A stretch of 64,000 bases of DNA from Moorella thermoacetica (GTDB lineage: Bacteria; Bacillota; DSM-521; Neomoorellales; Neomoorellaceae). Under the pieces are notes generated by a model, which had not been told where the DNA came from, searched no databases, and saw only the letters and a program-made list of their open reading frames with translations. The translations under genes and the position numbers were made by a program. Shown here in pieces: positions 23,615 to 63,126 of the stretch; position 1 is the first letter of the stretch; every line of letters begins with the position of its first letter. The DNA lies in assembly GCF_001267405.1 (NCBI RefSeq), contig NZ_CP012369.1, positions 2,072,001 through 2,136,000 of the forward strand, given 5' to 3'.

Positions 23615-23944
23615 AGACCTCCCCTTCCTTAAATTTAAATACTTGCGTCCACCTCAGCGGTGCCCTTTCTTCCCTCCTCCCTGCACCAGTTTTCTGAGTA
23701 TGGACTAAATATAATTTCTTCATCTTTATATAAAAACCAGTGGTTCCTATGCACATTCTTAATTGACAAAACACCACCCTGATGGGCGTAAGGCATAAGA
23801 TGAGCTTTTAAGGCATGGATCTTAAGAAAAATGTACCATCAGGCAATTTATTCGAGTTCCTGGCATTCAATGATGTCTGAAGGAGCATCCAGGTCTTTTA
23901 CTATTACTTTTTTCGACGATATAATATAAAAGCCATATTTTTTA
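23615..23944. other. Intergenic region, no gene seen
   Basis: AT-rich spacer between the divergent MFS operon and the c-di-AMP riboswitch. It must hold both promoters, but no clear -35/-10 pair was found for the MFS side. Confidence 0.5.
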
Positions 23945-24060
23945 GCACCGAATTCCCGGGTAGGCGGGAAACGGGGGATATTTTTGGGGTGAAGAGCCAA
24001 AGGCTCCGGGCTAACTCTCGGTCCGAACCCGTCAACTAACCTCGTAGGTGTGCGAGAGTG
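23945..24060 (+). ncRNA. c-di-AMP (ydaO/yuaA) riboswitch
   Basis: The aptamer landmarks are all there: an early CCCGGGTAGGCGGG region, ACGGGGGA, then GGGGTGAAGAGCC, and the hallmark CCGAACCCGTCAACTAACC followed by TCGTAGG. The closing P1-type helix pairs ACTCTCG (24014-24020) with CGAGAGT (24053-24059). The element ends about 15 bases before a cell-wall hydrolase gene, the classic target class; in known cases c-di-AMP lowers expression. The GGAGG of the gene overlaps the 3' edge of the element, so translation may be affected as well. Confidence 0.88.
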
Positions 24061-24074
24061 GAGGTCTTAGATAA

Positions 24075-30928: not shown

Positions 30929-31963
30929 TCAATAAACGTCTCCATCGGCTACGGCCCGGTACAGGGCCCGGACGTTCTCCGGCGGCAGGGAGGCGTTTAA
31001 AATGCCGCAGGCGGTAGAAAAGATATACCCGCCGCCCGGGGCTGCTTCGGCCAGCAAACGCTCTGCCGCTGCAGTTATGGTCTCCGGGTCGCCAGAAACC
31101 AGGAGGTCCAGATCAAAGTTGCCTATGAGGCACAACTTTTCCCCGTATTCCTTTTTAAGGGTGCCGATATCCATGCCGGCAGTCGGTTCCAGGCCTTGAA
31201 GGCCATCCAGGGCGAGAGCCGCCAGGTCGGGCAAGAGGGCTTTCAGATTACCGTCGGAGTGATAGATGACCGGCAGGCCGAGGGCTTTAATCCCCTCCAC
31301 CTGGTGCCGTAAAAGGGGTAAAAAGAGCTCCCGCCAGATGTCCGGCCGGATGTAGGTACCCTGGCTGTAGGCGATATCGTCGCCGATGATAATAGCGTGG
31401 GCCCCGGCCTGGCGGCAGAGGCGGGCCAGTTCCAGGTTGAAATCCACGACGGCCGCGGCCAGTTCCTCGACGGCCTCTTCCCTGGCGGCCGTCGCCAGGA
31501 GAAAGGTGGTAAAATCAAAGAGCCTCCCGGTCCCCTGAAAGGGGCCGTCGACAAAAGCCATAACAAAAAAATCCGTTTCCTCCCGCCAGCGACGGATGGC
31601 CTCAAGGTCAAAGGTGCCGGGGTCCGGCAGGGTATAGCCGGCGGCGGACTGGATGTCCTGGATAGCAGGGGCCTGGAGTACCATCAGGCCGCCCCACTTC
31701 TGGTAACGGCAGCCCCAGACATCCCGGTAACTGCCGTCCCCCTGTTCCTCCAGGGGTGCCCCTGGCGTCAGGGCCAGGAGGTCCATCCCCAGGAGTTCCC
31801 TAGCGGCCGCCTCTTCGCTAAAGCCAACCGGGCCCTCCCGGCCCAGGAGGGCGGCAACCAGCCCCGGCTCAATGGCGAATTCCCCCCGGGGTACCCGGTC
31901 GGCCCGGCCCCGGGCCAGGGTTACCTGCACCCTTTCCACATGGTTCACAGGCCTCGCCCCCAT
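30929..31963 (-). CDS. UroD-family methyltransferase, probable substrate:corrinoid enzyme
   Basis: A 344-residue barrel protein of the uroporphyrinogen-decarboxylase family. The zinc motif of MtaA/MtbA (HxC...C) is replaced by His235-Ser-Asp237 (VIYHSDGNLKALLPD), with Glu259 and Cys319 as other candidate ligands. This HSDGN form is the one found with demethylase corrinoid proteins, where the methyltransferase I component (MtvB/OdmB/VdmB type) takes a methyl group from a methoxylated or other methylated substrate. It is the last gene of a six-gene operon with corrinoid protein, pterin methyltransferase and activator, which fits that role. The substrate is not known. Confidence 0.75.
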   Translation of the reverse strand: MGARPVNHVERVQVTLARGRADRVPRGEFAIEPGLVAALLGREGPVGFSEEAAARELLGMDLLALTPGAPLEEQGDGSYRDVWGCRYQKWGGLMVLQAPAIQDIQSAAGYTLPDPGTFDLEAIRRWREETDFFVMAFVDGPFQGTGRLFDFTTFLLATAAREEAVEELAAAVVDFNLELARLCRQAGAHAIIIGDDIAYSQGTYIRPDIWRELFLPLLRHQVEGIKALGLPVIYHSDGNLKALLPDLAALALDGLQGLEPTAGMDIGTLKKEYGEKLCLIGNFDLDLLVSGDPETITAAAERLLAEAAPGGGYIFSTACGILNASLPPENVRALYRAVADGDVY

Positions 31964-32030
31964 CAGTCAGTAATCAAAGGCAAAAAATCTGAAATAGTAA
32001 ACCGGCCTTTATGGGCTTCGCCCGTTATTT

Positions 32031-33878
32031 TCAGGGCAAGAGAAGGGATTTAACATATACTTCGTGGAAGGACGGCCGGGTCATGAGCTCAAGATAGCCG
32101 ACCTGCCTGGCAATGGCTTCGCCCCGCTTCCTCTCCGTCAGGGAAAGGAGGGCCAGCCGCGCTCCGGTGCCGGCGGCATTGCCAACCTGGCGGAAGGCGG
32201 TTAAAGGCAGGTTGGGAAACATACCGATGGTGATGGCGCTCTCCAGCTTAAGATGGGTGCCAAAGGCGCCGGCCACGACGACCTCCTCCAGGTCCTTTAC
32301 TGTTAACCCGGCTGCCTCCAGGAGCAGGAGGGTCCCGGTGGCTATGGCGGCTTTGGCCAACTGAATCTCATTGATGTCCTTCTGGGTCACCACCAGGTCG
32401 CCGTCGATGCCGGTTTCCGCCGCCGGTACCAGGAGGAATTCCGGCGGTCCACCTCCGGCAGGTCGCCTCACCCGCGGGTGGTTGAGGTCCAGCCGACCGC
32501 TGGCGTTGAGGATGCCGGTACGGTAAAGCTCGGCCACGGCGTCCAGGATGCCGGAACCGCAGATACCCAGGGGTGGTACGCCACCAATACTTTCCCAGAA
32601 AACATCCCGGCCGTCGTCGCTTAAGCGGACGGCGGCAATAGCCCCGGTAACGGCCCGCATCCCCTGGGCGATATGGGCGCCTTCAAAAGCCGGCCCGGAG
32701 GCACAGGAACAGGAGAGCATTTTACCGCCATAACTTAAGACAATCTCCGTATTGGTGCCGATATCCAGTCCCAGGGTGACCTTACGGGCTTCATCAATCC
32801 GGCTGCCCAGGATCATGGCCACATGATCGCCGCCAACAAAACCGGCGATTACCGGTTGCAGGTAAACAAAGGCCCCCGGGCTTAAGTTTAAGCCAAGGTT
32901 CCGGGTCTTTATTTCTACCGGTGTAGTCAAAGCGGGTACATAGGGCGCCCGGGCAAGCTGCTCTACCGGCAGGTGCAGAAGCAGGTGATGCATGGCGGTG
33001 TTACCGACAATGACGGCTTCCTCAATATCCGTCGTCGCCACCCCGGCCTTCGCCGCCAGGGTAGCGGCCAGGCGGTTCAATCCCTCGATCTCCACCTCCT
33101 GGATGCGCCGGTACTCTTCTTCGCCCTCCAGGGCATAGCCCAGCCGGGCCATGACATCCTCGCCGTAGGTAATCTGGGGATTCATAATACCGTCGGCCGC
33201 CAGGGTAGCACCTGTCTCCAGGTTTATGAGAAAGCCGGCCACCTTGGTGGTCCCCAGGTCGACGGCCAGACCCACCGGCGGCGGGGCCAGGCGGCCGGTA
33301 TAAATATTGATAACCTCCGGCCCGCGCACCGTTACCACGCATTCTCCCTCCGTAGCCATTGGCTTCCATTCCCGGGCCAGGCCAAAGTCCACGCCGGGCC
33401 GGTCCAGGCCGTAGGTGGCTTCCAGCTCGCCGGTCACCTGCTGCCAGAGGGGGAGGGGGTTTTCAATGGTCGTCTTACTTAGCGGCAGGTTGTATCTTTT
33501 AACAGGGGGCTCGGGAGTAACTGCAATATCCAGCCCCTCGACCTGAAGTTTCTGAACTCCGAGCATAGATTCCGGCGGGATCTCTACCTTGACGGGGCCG
33601 ATGACCGTTGCCTGGCAGGCCAGGCGATAACCCTTTTCCAGTTGAGCCGGTGTGAGGAAGCGCCGCTCCGCCGGGTTTACTTCCCCTACCTCCCCGGACG
33701 CAATCCGCACCCGGCAGCGACCGCACAGGCCCCGGCCACCGCAGGGAGCGGTCAGCCCCCCCGCCCCCAGGGAGAGACCGAGTTGCTGGATAGCAGACAA
33801 AATGGTCTGGCCGGCGTCAACCTCTACCCGCCGGCCCACTGGCTGGAAATCAACTAGTACTCTTGCCAAAGTGGGCAC
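32031..33878 (-). CDS. Reductive activator of corrinoid enzymes (RACE)
   Basis: A 615-residue ATP-dependent activator that reduces inactive Co(II) corrinoid to Co(I). N-terminal [2Fe-2S] ferredoxin domain with Cys46, Cys52, Cys55 and Cys88 (APCGGRGLCGRCRVRI ... LACQA); middle linker region; C-terminal ASKHA ATPase core (DUF4445-type) with VDLGTTKVAGFL, IVGNTAMHHLLL, LGLDIGTNTEIVL and VVAGAFGTHL. The layout matches RamA-independent activators such as AcsV and Orf of O-demethylase operons. GTG 33878 starts inside the end of the response-regulator gene (29-base overlap). Confidence 0.93.
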   Translation of the reverse strand: MPTLARVLVDFQPVGRRVEVDAGQTILSAIQQLGLSLGAGGLTAPCGGRGLCGRCRVRIASGEVGEVNPAERRFLTPAQLEKGYRLACQATVIGPVKVEIPPESMLGVQKLQVEGLDIAVTPEPPVKRYNLPLSKTTIENPLPLWQQVTGELEATYGLDRPGVDFGLAREWKPMATEGECVVTVRGPEVINIYTGRLAPPPVGLAVDLGTTKVAGFLINLETGATLAADGIMNPQITYGEDVMARLGYALEGEEEYRRIQEVEIEGLNRLAATLAAKAGVATTDIEEAVIVGNTAMHHLLLHLPVEQLARAPYVPALTTPVEIKTRNLGLNLSPGAFVYLQPVIAGFVGGDHVAMILGSRIDEARKVTLGLDIGTNTEIVLSYGGKMLSCSCASGPAFEGAHIAQGMRAVTGAIAAVRLSDDGRDVFWESIGGVPPLGICGSGILDAVAELYRTGILNASGRLDLNHPRVRRPAGGGPPEFLLVPAAETGIDGDLVVTQKDINEIQLAKAAIATGTLLLLEAAGLTVKDLEEVVVAGAFGTHLKLESAITIGMFPNLPLTAFRQVGNAAGTGARLALLSLTERKRGEAIARQVGYLELMTRPSFHEVYVKSLLLP

Positions 33879-35496
33879 CCCCTATTTTCCGGAAGACACT
33901 GGGCGTGTAGCCTTCCTGCTTTTTAAACACCTGCCCAAAATAGCGAGCATCACGATAACCAACGCGAGTGGCGATTTCCGCTACCGGGAGCTTGGTGTTC
34001 AGCAATAACTCCCTGGCCGCCTTGAGGCGTACCTTTGTTAGATAATCTATGAAATTCAAGCCCTTGAACTGCTTGAACAGCTTGCTGAAATAACAGGGGC
34101 TAAGATATACCTGCCGGGCGACCTCTTCCAGGGTGAGATCCTGGCTGAAATTGGCCTCAATATACTTGCTGGCCCGGTCAATAAGGGAGGAATTGCGCTG
34201 CTCCCGGGTTTCCGCCACCTGGGCCACCAGGGCCATTAAACGTTCCAGGATGCGCTCCCGCATATCAGCCAGGTTGTCCAGGGTAAGAAACTCAGTGCTG
34301 CTGGCCAGGGCAAGGTCGGAAACCGCCTCCGGGTCGGCACCGCCCTCCAGGGCGGCCCTGGCCGCCAGGGTATTCAGTTCCAGGAGTTTCATCTTCAATA
34401 TAGCCGGCCGTTTTTCCTGCTCCAGGAGGAGTTGCATCAAAATATTTTTAGCCTGGCGGTAGGCAGCCTGCCTATCACCCATACGGATGGCCTGGGTTAA
34501 TTCCTGCTCCTCGGGAGCCGGCAGGAACTGGCCGGCACTGGGCCGGGCAATAACGTCGTCAGCATGGATAACCTGGTCCCCGCCGTAAAATAGCCGGAAT
34601 TCTGCCGCCGCCACCGCCTCGGCGTAGGAACGGGCCAGTTCAGCAACCTTTGCCACCGGCCGGCCGATACCCACCGTTACCGTAGCCCTGGTATCCCGGC
34701 GTACCTGCCGGCAAATGCCTTCTCCCAGCTCGATGGCGGCCTGGTGGCTATCTGCACCCGGGGCCAGGTGGTCCAGGGGCAGGAGGATGGCGAACTCATC
34801 CCTGGTTACCGGGGCGACCAGGGCCCCGGGCCAGGACACAGTCGCCCTTTCCAGACTTTCCTTGACCTGTTGCTTTAAAATCTGCCGTTCTACCTCTGTC
34901 CCCTCCCGGGCCAGAGCGGCAAAATTATCAATATCCACCAACATGGCCAGACGGGGCAAGGTGGCGATCCCCAGGAAGCGCGCCCGGCTGACGGCTTCGG
35001 CGTCGGTGATATTACCGTTGATCAGGTCCATGATAAAGCCCAGGCGAATAAAGGGCTTCGCTTCCTCCAGAGCGGCCCGCAACCTTGCTGTCTCCTGCTG
35101 GCGCCGGCGAGCGGCGGCGACGCCGGCAGCCAGTTCATCCAGGAGGGGAAGCATTTCTTCGGCCGCCACCGGCTTTAGTAAATATTTGGATGCCCCCAGG
35201 GCAACAGCTTCCCGGGTATAATCGAATTCGCCATAGGCAGTAACAAAAATCAACCTGGCCTCGGGTAGGATTGCCCGAATCTCCCGACCGGCGGTCAACC
35301 CATCCATGACGGGCATCTTGATATCCAGGAAGACGATGTCCGGTCGCAACCTGGCAGCCAGTTTGACCGCCTCGCCTCCATTACCCGCTTCCCCGGCAAT
35401 CTGGTAATGAGGGCGCTCCCTGGCCAGCAAAAAGCGGATGGCCTGGCGCTCCAGGGGTTCGTCGTCGACAAGCAGGATCTTGATATCCGTGGCCAA
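33850..35496 (-). CDS. YesN/AraC-type response regulator
   Basis: A 548-residue regulator. Receiver domain 1-125 with phospho-acceptor Asp58 (DIVFLDIKMPVMDG) and the Lys of YLLKPVA; a degenerate GGDEF-like middle (about 170-320, including AVTVGIGRPVAKVAELARSY); AraC-type double helix-turn-helix at about 440-540 (LTLEEVARQVYLSPCYFSKLFKQ and LPVAEIATRVGYRDARYFGQVFKKQEGYTPS). The TTG start is preceded by GAGGGGGG. It follows the kinase gene by 42 bases and is the evident cognate partner. Its target is presumably this operon's own promoter. Confidence 0.92.
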   Translation of the reverse strand: MATDIKILLVDDEPLERQAIRFLLARERPHYQIAGEAGNGGEAVKLAARLRPDIVFLDIKMPVMDGLTAGREIRAILPEARLIFVTAYGEFDYTREAVALGASKYLLKPVAAEEMLPLLDELAAGVAAARRRQQETARLRAALEEAKPFIRLGFIMDLINGNITDAEAVSRARFLGIATLPRLAMLVDIDNFAALAREGTEVERQILKQQVKESLERATVSWPGALVAPVTRDEFAILLPLDHLAPGADSHQAAIELGEGICRQVRRDTRATVTVGIGRPVAKVAELARSYAEAVAAAEFRLFYGGDQVIHADDVIARPSAGQFLPAPEEQELTQAIRMGDRQAAYRQAKNILMQLLLEQEKRPAILKMKLLELNTLAARAALEGGADPEAVSDLALASSTEFLTLDNLADMRERILERLMALVAQVAETREQRNSSLIDRASKYIEANFSQDLTLEEVARQVYLSPCYFSKLFKQFKGLNFIDYLTKVRLKAARELLLNTKLPVAEIATRVGYRDARYFGQVFKKQEGYTPSVFRKIGGAHFGKSTS

Positions 35497-35538
35497 GGCT
35501 GGTTGCTGCCCCCCTCGGAAACTTACTCTTTCCCACGC

Positions 35539-37362
35539 CTAATCCACAGTATAAGGAAAAGTCAGCTGGACGCAAGTACCTTTTCCCGGTATACTGGCTA
35601 CATCCAGGGCGCAGTTGCTACCAAAATGGTGCTGCAGGCGCCGGTAGACATTGACTATCCCCAGGCCGCTTACCTGGCCTTTACCGCTCCGCCGGACTTC
35701 CAGGTCAAAGATCGCCTTTTTCACCTCCGGCGGTATTCCGACCCCGTCATCCTTGATTTCTACCCGGACCTGGTCGCCCACCAGGCGGGCGGATACGGTG
35801 ATTTCCCCTCCCTCCTCCTTGGGTTCCAGGCCATGGATAATAGCATTCTCCACCAGGGGTTGCAGGACCATGCAGGGCAGCCGGGCCTGCATGGCGGCCT
35901 CTTCTACTTTCACCCGGCTCCGGACCCGGTCTGAAAACCGCGTTTCCTGGATAAAAAGGTAGTCGCGCACGGCAGCTATTTCTTCTGCCAGGGAAACCGT
36001 TCCCTTGACCTGGTAGAGGCTGTAGCGCATGAGGCGGGCCAGGGCGCGGACCATTTTTTCCGTATTGGCCGCCCCTTCCAGGAGGGCCAGGCGGGCTACG
36101 GTATTTAAAGAATTAAAGAGGAAGTGGGGGTTGACCTGGGATTGGAGGGCCTTGAGTTCGGCGTCCTTCAGGGCCTGTTCCAGCTGGTGCTGCCGCTTAA
36201 GGAAGTGGATGAAGCTCGCCTGCTGGTCCTCCAGTTCCTTATTGACCAGTAAAACGGTGTTGAGCTGCATGATCTGGCCGGATACAAAGGAGAGAAGACC
36301 GCAAACAGCTTCCAGGTCCGTTAGGGATAAGACTGGGACGGCTGCCTTCAAATCGGCCGGGTCAGGGTCGCCTCTCAAGAGGCAATGGCCACAGAGGACG
36401 GCCCCCACCGTCCCATCCTCATTGGCCAGAGGGTAGGAAATTTCCACCAACCCGGCATGACAGCGATAAATAAAAGCTTCTTTAAAATTGCCCTGGAGGG
36501 TGGTGACATCTTGGGCTCTGGCCGGGTTTTCCTTAAGCAGGTGGCAATGGCGGGAACACTCCAGGAAACCGCCCAGGGAAGTCAATGGGCGGCCGGCGGC
36601 ATCCACCATGACCAGATGCAGGCCTGTCATCCGGGTAAAGGCACGCTGCAGGTCTTCCAGGGAACCCTCCCCGAAAAACAGGTCCAGGGTAGCCGGAGCC
36701 AGGACGGCCCGGCGCTTGCGGTCGGCACCGATCAGGCTCTTAATCAGAGGTATAGCCGCCGTGGCATCGGGGGCGTAGCCGTCAGCTCCCATCCTGGCGG
36801 CAATCTTTTCATTCAGGGGGGTGCCGCCTACGACAACCTTTACTTTATCCCGCCAGCCGGCCTCCCGCAGGGCAGTAATAGTTTCCTCCATACCCTTGCG
36901 GGTAGAAGAAAGGAGGGCCGAGAGGCAGAGGACATCGGGACGGTGCTTAATGACCGCCTCCACAAAGGTGCTGGGGGCTACGTTCACGCCCAGGTCGATA
37001 ACCTCAAAGCCCGATGCCTCGAGCATGATGGCGAGGAGATTCTTGCCGATATCATGGATGTCCCCCTGGACAGTACCGACAATGGCCCGCCCCACCGGTT
37101 GCACCTTACCGGCCAGCATCAGGGGCTTAAGTTCCTTGAGGCCGGTATGCATGGCCCGGGCGGTAATAATCAAGTCAGTTACGTAAATCTCGTTGCGTTC
37201 GAACCTTTCCCCCACTACATCCATGGCTGCCACAAAGCCATCGGTTATGATCCGGGCCGGTTCGATCCCCGCTGCCAAGGCCCTTTTTACTTCTTCCCGG
37301 ACCTTGACAGCGTTGCCGTCGATTACAGCCTGGATTAGATTTTCCAGGGAAAAGGATGCCAT
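35539..37362 (-). CDS. Corrinoid-binding/PocR sensor histidine kinase
   Basis: A 607-residue fusion without transmembrane helices. Residues 1-211 form a complete corrinoid protein: helical cap (1-88) and B12-binding domain with D101-x-H103-x-x-G106 (GDIHDIGKN), SAL (148-150) and GG (179-180), closely similar to the stand-alone corrinoid protein at 38250-38879. Residues about 225-375 are a PocR sensor domain with Cys269, 273, 301, 324 and 327. A short coiled coil (375-408) leads to a LytS/YesM-type kinase: phospho-His413 (NPHFLFNSLN), N box QPLVENAIIHGLEP and G box DDGVGIP. It likely reads the state of the corrinoid or the methyl supply and controls the operon through the adjacent regulator. 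Confidence 0.93.
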   Translation of the reverse strand: MASFSLENLIQAVIDGNAVKVREEVKRALAAGIEPARIITDGFVAAMDVVGERFERNEIYVTDLIITARAMHTGLKELKPLMLAGKVQPVGRAIVGTVQGDIHDIGKNLLAIMLEASGFEVIDLGVNVAPSTFVEAVIKHRPDVLCLSALLSSTRKGMEETITALREAGWRDKVKVVVGGTPLNEKIAARMGADGYAPDATAAIPLIKSLIGADRKRRAVLAPATLDLFFGEGSLEDLQRAFTRMTGLHLVMVDAAGRPLTSLGGFLECSRHCHLLKENPARAQDVTTLQGNFKEAFIYRCHAGLVEISYPLANEDGTVGAVLCGHCLLRGDPDPADLKAAVPVLSLTDLEAVCGLLSFVSGQIMQLNTVLLVNKELEDQQASFIHFLKRQHQLEQALKDAELKALQSQVNPHFLFNSLNTVARLALLEGAANTEKMVRALARLMRYSLYQVKGTVSLAEEIAAVRDYLFIQETRFSDRVRSRVKVEEAAMQARLPCMVLQPLVENAIIHGLEPKEEGGEITVSARLVGDQVRVEIKDDGVGIPPEVKKAIFDLEVRRSGKGQVSGLGIVNVYRRLQHHFGSNCALDVASIPGKGTCVQLTFPYTVD

Positions 37363-37431
37363 ATTACTCCTCCTAATAAAACAACCGCAGTAGGGAAACC
37401 TCCCTCCTGCGGCCGCAAGTTGCTTGCCAGA

Positions 37432-38232
37432 TCAGGCCTTAATCTTCCCGGCCCGGGCGGCAGATATATACTCCAGGCAGTATTCATCCTGGCCGTACAG
37501 GGCGGTGGCGGCCCGCAACAGGCCCATTAATGGCATATCCAGGGGATCAAGGATAAAGGAATCCATACCTTTAGTGAGGCACATAACCATAAAGGCCCGG
37601 TTCAGCAGTCGCCTTTCCGGCAGGCCATAGGAAACGTTGGAAAGGCCGCAGATGGTGTGAACCCCGGGGTATTTTTGCCGCAGGGCGGCAACCGATTCCA
37701 GAGCCTCCACGCCGTACTGGCTGTTAACTCCCAGGGGTTTAATCAGGGGATCAAGGTAGATATCGTCTTCCGGTATGCCGGCCTCTACCAGCCCGGGTAC
37801 CAGCTTACCAGCAACGCGAAGGCGGTCCTCTACCGAATCCGGCATGCCGCCGTCATCCATGCAAAGGGCGATAACCTTAGCCTTATATTTCTGCACTAAA
37901 GGCAAAACTTCCTCCCAGCGCTGCTTCTCGGCGGTGATGGAGTTTACCATTGCCTGGCCCTTATGGGCTGCCAGGCCGGCAGCCAGGGCCTCGGCGCTGG
38001 GGCTATCAATACACAGGGGAACATCAACGACTTCCTGGACGATATTCACGAGCCAGGTCATTACCTTATTTTCTTCGCCGATGCTTGTCCCGCAGTTAAC
38101 ATCGATAATATCGGCTCCGGCCTCGGCCTGCTTCCTGGCCAGTTCCTGGATATAATCCTTATCCCGGTTAGCAATAGCCTGGGCAATGGCTTTGCGGCTG
38201 GAGTTAATTAACTCTCCGACAACGAGCATCAC
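37432..38232 (-). CDS. Methyltetrahydrofolate:corrinoid methyltransferase (MtvA/AcsE-like)
   Basis: A 266-residue pterin-binding TIM barrel. MMLVVGELINSSRK at the start, ADIIDVNCGT (pterin-binding Asp/Asn), VPLCIDSPS, IALCMDDGGMPDS and HTICGLSNVSYGLPERRLLN are typical of AcsE and of the methyltransferase II (MtvA) of acetogen O-demethylases. It moves the methyl group between methyl-corrinoid protein and tetrahydrofolate, feeding the Wood-Ljungdahl pathway. It lies 17 bases after the corrinoid-protein gene. The symbol mtvA would fit but substrate specificity is unproven. Confidence 0.9.
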   Translation of the reverse strand: MMLVVGELINSSRKAIAQAIANRDKDYIQELARKQAEAGADIIDVNCGTSIGEENKVMTWLVNIVQEVVDVPLCIDSPSAEALAAGLAAHKGQAMVNSITAEKQRWEEVLPLVQKYKAKVIALCMDDGGMPDSVEDRLRVAGKLVPGLVEAGIPEDDIYLDPLIKPLGVNSQYGVEALESVAALRQKYPGVHTICGLSNVSYGLPERRLLNRAFMVMCLTKGMDSFILDPLDMPLMGLLRAATALYGQDEYCLEYISAARAGKIKA

Positions 38233-38249
38233 TTGGCCTCCCTTATATT

Positions 38250-38879
38250 TTACGAAGCGAGGAGTTGTGCGGCCAGGTCAACGGCCGACGCAGCATCGGG
38301 AGCGTAACCGTCGGCTCCGATTTCATCGGCAAACTTCTGGGTTACCGGGGCGCCGCCGACCATAATCTTGATCTTATCCCTGTAAGCAGCCAGACCTTCG
38401 ACAGTCTTCTTCATCTGCATCATGGTGGATGTCAGCAGGGCGGAAATGCCTACCAGCTGGGGTTTGTGCTCTTCCACCGCCTGGACGAATTTCTCTACCG
38501 GCACGTCAATACCTAGGTCGATAACCTTGTAGCCCGCGCCTTCCATCATCATGATGACCAGGTTCTTGCCGATATCGTGAAGGTCACCCTTGACCGTACC
38601 GATAACGAAGGTGCCTTTTTCCTTAATGTCGCCGCCGGCCAGGAGGGGCTTGACCACATCCATGCCAGCGTGCATGGCCCGGGCCGCTACCAGGACCTCC
38701 GGAACATAGACTTCATTATTCTTAAATTTGACACCAATAATGTTCATGGCTGCAATCAGGCCGTCGTTAATGATCGTCGTGGGCTCAATGCCTTCATCTA
38801 GGGCTTTTTGGGCCAGTTCCCGCACTTTGTTGGCGTTACCAGCCATCAAGGCTTCTTTCATTTCCTCCAGGACAGCCAT
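38250..38879 (-). CDS. Methyltransferase corrinoid protein (MtvC/MtaC-like)
   Basis: A 209-residue methyl carrier. Helical cap (about 5-85) followed by the Rossmann-like B12 domain with D99-x-H101-x-x-G104 (GDLHDIGKN), the SALLTS segment and MVGGAPVT. The His replaces the lower base of the cobamide (base-off/His-on). It is the first gene of the operon, with AAGGAGG and a consensus-like promoter upstream. It carries methyl groups between the UroD-family methyltransferase and the pterin enzyme. Its near-duplicate forms the N-terminus of the kinase at 35539-37362. Confidence 0.94.
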   Translation of the reverse strand: MAVLEEMKEALMAGNANKVRELAQKALDEGIEPTTIINDGLIAAMNIIGVKFKNNEVYVPEVLVAARAMHAGMDVVKPLLAGGDIKEKGTFVIGTVKGDLHDIGKNLVIMMMEGAGYKVIDLGIDVPVEKFVQAVEEHKPQLVGISALLTSTMMQMKKTVEGLAAYRDKIKIMVGGAPVTQKFADEIGADGYAPDAASAVDLAAQLLAS

Positions 38880-38919
38880 CTGTCATTCCTCCTTAAATAT
38901 TAAAGTTGGTTCATTTTTA

Positions 38920-38948
38920 AGTTTATTTTAAGATAAATTGAACGGCAA
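38920..38948 (-). promoter_or_regulatory. Promoter of the corrinoid demethylase operon
   Basis: On the minus strand TTGCCG (38943-38948), 17-base spacer, TAAACT (38920-38925). It lies about 40 bases before the corrinoid-protein gene. The imperfect boxes fit an activator-dependent promoter. Confidence 0.6.
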
Positions 38949-39357
38949 GGTTAAATTCTTGCCAAAGGTTTATTTTCTTGCCCTTTGGGGATGCCGGCGC
39001 CGTCTGGTGGGACGGGGGAATAATTAAACCAATCAAGCGTTAGTCGGTCATAAGGCTAGGGCTCTTAGCTGCCGCCAGCCGGCACTGCGACCCATAAAAA
39101 TAACCCCGTAAGCGGGGTCTATCATTGAATCGGCTAATGACACTCGCACCTAATGCCGCACCGTTAAGAGCTTAGAAGTGTTAGAAGAGCAGCGAACAAA
39201 TACTCTGGATTGCAGCCTCTTATCTGGAGGCAGAAAAGAGTTTTCATCGGATTAACGGCTATCGCGAACTGCCCCTATACTGAAAGAGGCGATGGGCAAG
39301 AAGTTGTTTCCAGAATCTTCCATTAGGAGCTATCACGGATTTATGCGGAATGTGGGT
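38949..39357. other. Intergenic region between demethylase operon and catabolic island
   Basis: It holds the terminator at 39093-39121 and otherwise no recognised gene or repeat. The base composition changes from GC-rich to AT-richer across it. Confidence 0.5.
39093..39121 (-). terminator. Terminator after carbamate kinase
   Basis: On the minus strand ACCCCG-CTTA-CGGGGT is followed by TATTTTTAT. It lies about 240 bases after arcC and ends the catabolic operon. Confidence 0.75.
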
Positions 39358-42492: not shown

Positions 42493-43596
42493 CTACACCC
42501 TGGCAATAACAGCAATTGGGCCACCGCCATCAGGCCCTTGATGCTCTGCACCACCGGAAACGTAGACCATAGGATCTCCTACCACGCTGGCAATAACAGC
42601 ATTTACTACTGCTCGCGCCGAGCGGGTATGATTGATATCAGAGTCATCAAGCATCGTGTTACGCCTACCCCTTACTGTACCAGAAGATGCGGCCTCAGCC
42701 TTGGCCAGTACATTAACGATCTTAGCAAGCTCTTCTGCTGGCGGGCAACAATCAAATTTTAAACCGGCATCTTTAAGGGCAGCACGTACTGCATCAGCGT
42801 CAATGGCATCCTTCATAACAGAGTGGCCTATAACCAAATCACTGGCACTATTGGTAGAGTTTCCTACTACGATAATTTCGTCATTAAGAAGTTCAACCCC
42901 CGCTGACGTCGAAGCCACACTAGAGTAGAGATTCCAGTCATGACAAATTGCTTCGTTGCTAATCTTATCCGCAGATATCTCGCCCAGTGCGAGGGCCACT
43001 CCGAGAGCTGAGGCGCCACGTGAGTAAGCCATTGATTTATAAGTGTCATTTACCACAACATCTTTCCCGCGTCGCTTGGCATCCTCAATTCTTTCAGCAG
43101 TCAAAAGCGGGCACTTTATCTGAACAAAGTGAACGTCGCGGGGATCATCTATTTGGGCGTCTTTCATAGCCTCTTTTACAGCTCGAGCCACTTCGTTTAC
43201 CTGTTCCATCCGGCCCAATTCTTCCGGCAGAAAGTCCCGCGTAAAAGCTACGCCTACTGCCAAGCGCTTTCCTGGCTTAGCTGGTTCCTGGACATCTTTT
43301 CGGACAAAGACAGTAATGTGCGGCGTCATAACACCCTCAGTACCGCCTGACATTATAAACGCAACTTTTTTTACAACTTCTTCGCGGCTTATTCCCAATT
43401 TTTCTGCTAGATACATTGCTAGAGATTGGGTAGCAAAACCGCGAGTAAAATCGTTAACACAACCATTACCTTCCGTCTTGCCCAGAATAGCTACAATTTC
43501 AGCCGGATTAATCTTCCCTGAGTCAATCAAAGTAGCCAACCCGCTGATATCATCAGGTGAGGCTGTTGGGATACGAAAGACTTCAACTTTTTGCAT
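42493..43596 (-). CDS. atzD: Cyanuric acid amidohydrolase / barbiturase family
   Basis: A 367-residue ring-opening amidohydrolase with three similar domains. The expected Ser-Lys pairs are present: Lys40/Ser83 ([16 protein letters not shown]), Lys161/Ser231 ([17 protein letters not shown]) and Ser347 ([16 protein letters not shown]) with a Lys near 292-299. The family hydrolyses cyanuric acid to carboxybiuret, or barbiturate to ureidomalonate. A thermostable cyanuric acid hydrolase is known from Moorella, which supports the first. Neighbours suggest that the ureido product is then cleaved by phosphate to carbamoyl phosphate. Confidence 0.92.
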
Positions 43597-62812: not shown

Positions 62813-62835
62813 CCGGCCCGGTTGACCACCGGGTC

Positions 62836-62960
62836 AAATACTCCTTTCCCATTCCGGGAGGCAGGCCGGTTTCCCCGCCTACCCCGTCGCTGCCTGGCAA
62901 GCAGGCAGGAGGCCAGCAGCCATAGCCGAAAACCTTAGGCCCACTGGCTCGGAGGTTTAT
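62836..62960 (-). ncRNA. Moco (molybdenum/tungsten cofactor) riboswitch
   Basis: On the minus strand the element opens with CCTCCGAGCCAGTGGG and closes with GCCTCCCGGAATGGGAAAGG, which correspond to the conserved flanks of the Moco RNA motif. Between them an internal hairpin (CTGCCTG and CAGGCAG) fits the variable arm. It precedes a molybdopterin biosynthesis operon and is followed by a hairpin (GACCCGGT...ACCGGG) and then a terminator, a plausible expression platform. Whether it answers to Mo- or W-cofactor is not decided by sequence reading alone. Confidence 0.82.
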
Positions 62961-63126
62961 AGAGTTATGTTCATTTTAGCATAACCTAAAACGAGTGACA
63001 AGGGCGCTCTTTCCAAATGCCTGTCAATCCCGGCTCTTACAATTTATGGGCGGTGAGGGGCTGTCGGCCTTCTTTCCGCGGTGGAACGGTGCAATTTCTC
63101 ATGCCCTGCAAAAAATCAATCAAGCC

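Follow-up and report, generated by a model that had tools for sequence, protein, structure and literature searches.

Why would a histidine kinase begin with a module that otherwise serves to carry methyl groups on a corrinoid? This question is raised by an operon of Moorella thermoacetica located in a window of 64,000 nucleotides (contig NZ_CP012369.1, positions 2,072,001 to 2,136,000; coordinates below are those of the window unless a contig or locus is named), in which a corrinoid methyltransferase system is encoded together with a two-component system. The kinase (HK) joins a complete corrinoid-carrier module to a PocR-type sensory domain and a histidine kinase core. Its cofactor site is intact, its carrier module is under strong constraint, its gene is linked to corrinoid-methyltransferase genes across genera, and a unique conserved operator lies at the operon promoter. 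On balance, we lean toward a cobamide-binding kinase that would combine the state of its corrinoid with a PocR ligand signal and thereby induce its own methyltransferase operon.

The six open reading frames (ORFs) named in the initial annotation are all present at the place it gave, on the minus strand. In 5′-to-3′ order, they encode CP, a corrinoid methyl-carrier protein resembling MtvC/MtgC (209 amino acids [aa]; 38250..38879); MTII, a pterin (tetrahydrofolate):corrinoid methyltransferase (266 aa; 37432..38232); HK (607 aa; 35539..37362); RR, a response regulator in which Pfam recognizes REC, GGDEF-like, and AraC-type helix-turn-helix domains (548 aa; 33850..35496); a RACo/RamA-type reductive activator of corrinoid proteins with 2Fe-2S and ASKHA domains (615 aa; 32031..33878); and a UroD-superfamily methyltransferase (344 aa; 30929..31963), which is probably the substrate:corrinoid methyltransferase (MTI) of the operon. 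CP and MTII were assigned by ORF and domain searches. The start of the RACo-like ORF overlaps the end of RR by 29 nt, and since the gaps are short or overlapping, a single operon is likely. It lies at 83.5% of the 2.53-Mb, one-contig genome. Because gene order and relative position fit, CP and MTII most likely correspond to mtvC5 and mtvA3 (Mothe_c21700/21690) of PMC13391211, where the transcripts of both are raised on methanol versus glucose.

Pfam searches divide HK into a B12-binding_2 helical cap (residues 6-79; E value, 4e-20), a Rossmann-type B12-binding domain (92-204; 3e-26), PocR (234-340; 2e-17), His_kinase (401-480; 5.9e-27), and HATPase_c (497-604; 5.2e-17). The first two form the carrier module (residues 6-204; 36751..37347, minus strand), whose cofactor motif reads D101-x-H103-x-x-G106, S148-x-L150, T154, and G179-G180. 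It thus contains the cap, the Rossmann domain, and the DxHxxG, SxL, and GG elements of a corrinoid carrier. In addition, residues 6 to 211 align end to end with the cobalamin-binding protein PDB 1y80 (E value, 8e-57). Both results agree with the earlier proposal of a full carrier module with an intact DxHxxG motif. Over the aligned stretch, PDB 1y80 is identical to an MtaC-type carrier (L006) from another operon of the same genome, and we take it to be the corrinoid protein from M. thermoacetica described by Das et al. in 2007. HK falls below the cut-offs of the curated carrier models TIGR02370 (177.8 versus 215.3 bits) and MtgC NF047996 (204.9 versus 370 bits) and is therefore not classified as a carrier; CP itself likewise scores below both (212.2 and 241.9 bits, respectively).

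The C-terminal kinase core (residues 401-604; 35551..36162, minus strand) belongs to the HPK7 type, with a PF06580 domain, a PHFLFN phospho-acceptor box, and the N-box of HATPase_c; H413 and N506 are conserved. Between the two lies the PocR-type domain (residues 234-340; 36343..36663, minus strand), the most variable part of the protein. It scores 63.8 bits against PF10114 (curated cut-off, 23.9) over profile positions 7 to 116 of 162, the last quarter of the profile being unmatched. PocR domains are predicted to bind a small alcohol or hydrocarbon ligand. Four cysteines of this domain (C269, C273, C301, and C324; window 36343-36570) are conserved at a spacing unlike that in kinases that have PocR as their only sensory domain (PocR-only kinases), and they could possibly form a metal or thiol redox site.

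To see how the cofactor site compares with that of true carriers, 22 distinct kinase B12 domains were aligned to 49 carriers. D101, H103, G106, K107, S148, G179, and G180 are invariant in both sets (22/22 and 49/49). In Escherichia coli MetH, H103 and D101 correspond to H759 and D757, and T154, kept in nearly all kinase domains, to S810. The cap is likewise kept in the kinases, with F54, V61, and L64 aligning to MetH F708, L715, and V718. These MetH residues have roles in ligation, proton relay, and capping. The kinases nevertheless differ from the carriers at C146, at R92, and along a cap strip (positions 55 to 67). C146 is found in every kinase versus Gly or Ala in every carrier, and R92 in nearly all kinases versus 2 of the 49 carriers. 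Position 55 is mostly Glu or Gln in kinases and Lys in 82% of carriers, position 62 is Thr in 81% of the main kinase clade and Pro in 46/49 carriers, and position 63 is Asp in most kinases and Glu in 44/49 carriers. Seven of the 24 differences lie within cap residues 54 to 67 (1.6 expected; P = 0.0002), although this range was picked after the list of differences had been viewed, so the clustering in the cap is suggestive only. C146 aligns to MetH G802; it precedes the SxL serine by two residues on the same strand, and from this position its thiol may face the pocket of the nucleotide tail.

Homologues were surveyed in one phylum, with one additional pattern-based scan of named genomes. Besides the genome of the window, nine Moorella genomes encode a full-length HK homologue, and one more (G006) encodes a partial one. 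The fused kinase is also found in three additional genera of this family (G015, where it is split over contigs, G016, and G017), in Desulfotomaculum copahuensis, and in a Bacillota metagenome-assembled genome (MAG). At least four further families of the phylum contain it, namely f35 (G053 and G129), f59 (G086), f49 (G105 and G170), and f30 (G048, G160, G213, G237, G368, and G405). Extending the search to order and class level around two distant homologues covered 3-4 genomes and added nothing, and spread on plasmids was rejected, as no record of a plasmid reaches 80% coverage of the query. Identities of the B12, PocR, and kinase-core parts to the window kinase are 80/63/71% in G017, 76/55/72% in G016, 58/37/66% in G053, and 48/41/58% in G086. 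The ratio of nonsynonymous to synonymous substitution rates (dN/dS) of the B12 domain ranges from 0.03 to 0.13, the lowest of the three domains in all five Moorella pairs. PocR scores fall to 39-43 bits in G053 and G086 and to 22.6 bits, just below the cut-off, in G237, and PF10114 is undetectable in G105, where the B12 and kinase domains are still detected. The middle domain thus varies, whereas the corrinoid module does not. Since the whole architecture is kept over approximately 600 aa in some 20 further genomes from several families and the B12 domain is under strong purifying selection, the fusion is more than a chance event.

The initial annotation had described the N-terminus as a full copy of the operon's carrier. 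The module is indeed complete, but it is only 48% identical to CP and represents an old, separate lineage, so a recent duplication of CP was rejected. In the tree, kinase B12 domains branch apart from the operon carriers in a main clade (support, 90/91) and a clade of family f30 (100/100). This tree is the second one, calculated after three apparent carriers within the kinase clade of the first had turned out to be kinases truncated at the end of a locus or contig and had been removed. Constraining all kinase domains to one clade costs 3.95 log units and is not rejected (p-AU 0.337); two separate fusions, of the main clade and of f30, are therefore not shown.

The genomic surroundings of the fused kinase were tabulated, as the initial annotation had suggested, and proved strongly and specifically linked to corrinoid-methyltransferase genes. 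Of the 13 genera whose flanking sequence sufficed, 12 have CP, MTII, UroD, or RACo genes directly around it, and a response-regulator gene adjoins every fused kinase where the contig continues. In contrast, when 16 PocR-only kinases of this phylum were inspected over approximately 6 kb on each side, none had any of the four genes, while a regulator was detectable beside 15 of them. Fisher's exact test yields approximately 2.5e-7 for 12/13 versus 0/16, with related genomes not being fully independent. The gene order in G237 is CP-UroD-DUF1638-MTII-RACo-kinase-regulator; its DUF1638 protein (L107:6247-6927) is thus encoded inside a corrinoid-methyltransferase operon with a fused kinase. In M. 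thermoacetica DSM 21394 (G005; L112 and L047), the kinase gene now lies beside apparent pyrimidine biosynthesis genes.

How might such a kinase act on its operon? Upstream of CP, a 46-bp operator, AAAGGGCAAGAAAATAAACCTTTGGCAAGAATTTAACCTTGCCGTT (38941..38986, minus strand), is conserved and represents the predicted binding site of RR. The regulatory element therefore reaches to approximately 38986, and while the initial annotation had placed the genes correctly, its region, ending at 38948, was too short. The block that the Moorella genomes have in common upstream of CP has the core CAAGAAANNAAACNNNTGNCAATAATTTNNCCTTG, and the operator contains a pair of direct repeats of the GGCAAGAAWWT type at a distance of 19 bp. 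As read from the sequence, a putative -35 element (TTGCCG; 38943..38948, minus strand) overlaps the operator, and a putative -10 element (TAAACT; TANACT in relatives; 38920..38925, minus strand) follows at a spacing of 17 bp, with 17-18 bp kept in relatives. This layout is that of an AraC-type activator site adjoining RNA polymerase. The operator occurs upstream of the operon, once per genome, in all Moorella genomes that keep CP and MTII. When 21 whole genomes were searched with a profile, every Moorella genome whose operon start is intact yielded one strong site (E values, 1e-11 to 1e-14), and G012 and G018-G023 yielded none. No second significant site that would mark a further regulon member was found in Moorella; weak partial matches (E values, 0.02-0.09) were disregarded. 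A weight matrix trained on 12 sites or promoters also places the operator ahead of MTII in D. copahuensis (L072), ahead of CP in the FK5 MAG (L073), and ahead of both CP genes of G053, with no other match above 14 bits among the loci scanned. Because the single site always lies at the operon, the regulator seems tied to its own operon and a wide regulon is unlikely. The overlap with the operon's own -35 element implies that the two-component system autoregulates its operon through this candidate site. The draft genome G006 (C100:13231-14202; L032 and L146) contains a kinase fragment that begins at residue 307 and is closely preceded by half of an operator, an arrangement that would result if a deletion, or an error of assembly, had joined the promoter to the kinase core.

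In MetH-type proteins, a module with a lower-ligand His, a relay, and a cap changes conformation with the state of the cobalt. We favor a state sensor because the HK module, with its His, relay Thr, and cap, resembles this conformational switch. HK would be a cytosolic kinase that holds a corrinoid in the base-off/His-on form at H103 under the helical cap, where, in known proteins, the reactive cofactor is shielded (PMC10567725). A change in the oxidation state of the corrinoid or in its upper ligand (methyl-Co(III), Co(II), Co(I), or empty) would alter the cap and the His ligation, and this signal, merged with that of the PocR ligand, would set autophosphorylation at H413. Phosphorylated RR is then predicted to bind the operator overlapping the -35 element and to activate all six genes, giving positive autoregulation. 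The presumed direction of the response is that induction of the methyltransferase system would occur in the joint presence of substrate and a competent corrinoid. The more specific idea of the initial annotation, that the operon's methyltransferases methylate the B12 domain and that the methylation or redox state of its bound corrinoid is the signal, is a tentative one, and we lean against it.

Several observations weigh against the proposed sensor. The pairing of regulator and operator is a co-occurrence, with a contact that is predicted only, and the structure models of HK and its PocR domain, made from an alignment of eight sequences, were of low confidence (pLDDT 52.6 and 62.5) and were not used. 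No methyltransferase gene accompanies the fused kinase of G086, and in G005 the kinase, regulator, RACo, and UroD genes remain, with CP, MTII, and the strong operator lost together. The transcript data make no mention of the kinase in the passages of PMC13391211 consulted, and the locus tags were matched to this operon by gene order and relative position.

A further such point is that the invariant cofactor site fits about as well with a B12 domain that merely reports cobamide availability, with PocR providing the substrate signal and methylation or redox state being irrelevant. PocR of Salmonella, in this regard, couples cobalamin synthesis with propanediol use. Furthermore, no cobalamin riboswitch lies within the window; riboswitch control of the operon was rejected on these grounds, and sensing of cofactor supply would have to occur by other means. 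However, it is not apparent why such a gate would require the methyl-protecting cap or the Thr/Ser residue in the ligand relay, both of which are kept, and the kinase-specific changes concentrate by the upper face. Moorella also makes its own corrinoids (a B12 biosynthesis cluster is reported in PMC13391211), so supply should rarely be limiting, and we hold such an availability gate to be unlikely.

It is improbable that the B12 domain only docks the kinase onto the methyltransferases or the activator, or competes with the carrier, leaving PocR as the sole ligand sensor. In favor of docking, the domain has as its homologue a protein that binds to precisely those enzymes, whose genes are linked to that of the kinase, but the invariance of all corrinoid ligand residues would be needless, and the kinase is kept without neighboring partners in G086 and without a local CP or MTII in G005. 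Nothing in our analysis speaks for the competition with the carrier suggested previously. Even less probable is a bifunctional enzyme in which a working methyl carrier was joined to the kinase for co-expression and PocR alone signals. All carrier residues for alpha-face binding are present, and a UroD-carrier fusion does exist in the genome (L007), yet the operon encodes a dedicated carrier and the kinase domains show fixed differences from carriers, including the loss of P62. Finally, an adenosylcobalamin photoreceptor coupling light to the kinase, as in CarH or photocobilins, is scarcely credible: HK shares their superfamily and weakly matches CarH structures, but it lacks both the W-(10)x-EH motif reported in B12 photoreceptors (PMC10979010) and any Trp in residues 1 to 169, scores 36.2 bits against CarH model NF052513 (cut-off, 400), has methyl carriers as its closest relatives, and belongs to a methyltransferase operon of an anaerobic thermophile.

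Compared to known systems, the cobamide-binding sensor proposed here combines familiar parts in a design for which, as the initial annotation had supposed, nothing comparable was found in the searchable open-licence PMC literature, although subscription reviews could list B12-kinase fusions. PocR-domain histidine kinases with AraC-type response regulators were reportedly described by Anantharaman and Aravind in 2005. HK shares with these kinases the PocR domain, the histidine kinase, and the adjacent regulator. One of them, MecA of the dichloromethane mec cassette, also sits in a corrinoid-methyltransferase cassette, but at 430 aa as listed (PMC9768040), it is too short for carrier module, PocR, and kinase; the 16 PocR-only kinases likewise lack a B12 domain. 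With carriers (MtaC, MtvC, MtgC, PDB 1y80, and the MetH B12 module), HK shares the complete cap and Rossmann fold and all ligand residues, and it differs in the fusion to PocR and kinase and at C146, R92, and cap positions 55 and 62-65. CarH/LitR and photocobilins also join a MetH-like B12 module as a sensor to a signaling output; here, the output is a histidine kinase, the W/EH motif is missing, and the context is C1 metabolism rather than light. Finally, the mtv (M. thermoacetica), odm (Acetobacterium dehalogenans), and mta (A. woodii) operons similarly unite CP, MTII, activator, and MTI, in contrast to which this operon embeds a kinase/regulator pair with a carrier-like sensor. New here are the 46-bp operator at the operon promoter and the kinase-specific residue differences from carriers.

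Regulation of O-demethylase/methyltransferase systems, of which one strain can have 26, is largely unexplored (PMC13222342). For the choice that acetogens make among their many corrinoid methyltransferase systems, a specific sensor, its partner regulator, and a delimited operator can now be proposed. The conserved module suggests that cells may read the state of a B12 cofactor directly. If the B12 domain signals, it would offer cells a way to sense a corrinoid's chemical state, as opposed to light, as well as a ready-made biosensor for methyl-corrinoid flux; a histidine kinase would then read metabolic methyl flux through a resident organometallic cofactor.

Related arrangements occur elsewhere in the genome. 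The methanol operon mtaA-mtaC-mtaB is preceded by a PocR-AraC one-component regulator (L065:5243-6562; G000:C1 at approximately 1138242-1139561), which is a PocR-only counterpart of the fused-kinase system. Its frame is split by an in-frame TAG, reflecting either a decayed gene or a sequencing error. The UroD-carrier fusion mentioned above consists of 568 aa with a UroD-type methyltransferase and a C-terminal corrinoid carrier (L007/L063; G000:C1:1384189-1385751) and is represented by relatives in both G005 and G017. It matches gene Mothe_c14370 of PMC13391211, described there as "mtaA and mtaC fused," and its parts resemble CmuA. Upstream of the operon, a cyanuric acid amidohydrolase gene of the AtzD family lies on the same strand (window 42493-43596, minus strand), near genes for carbamate kinase and a xanthine-type permease. 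The window also contains a c-di-AMP (ydaO) riboswitch (23936-24065, plus strand) and a Moco/tungsten riboswitch (62825-62966, minus strand), both above the Rfam gathering score.

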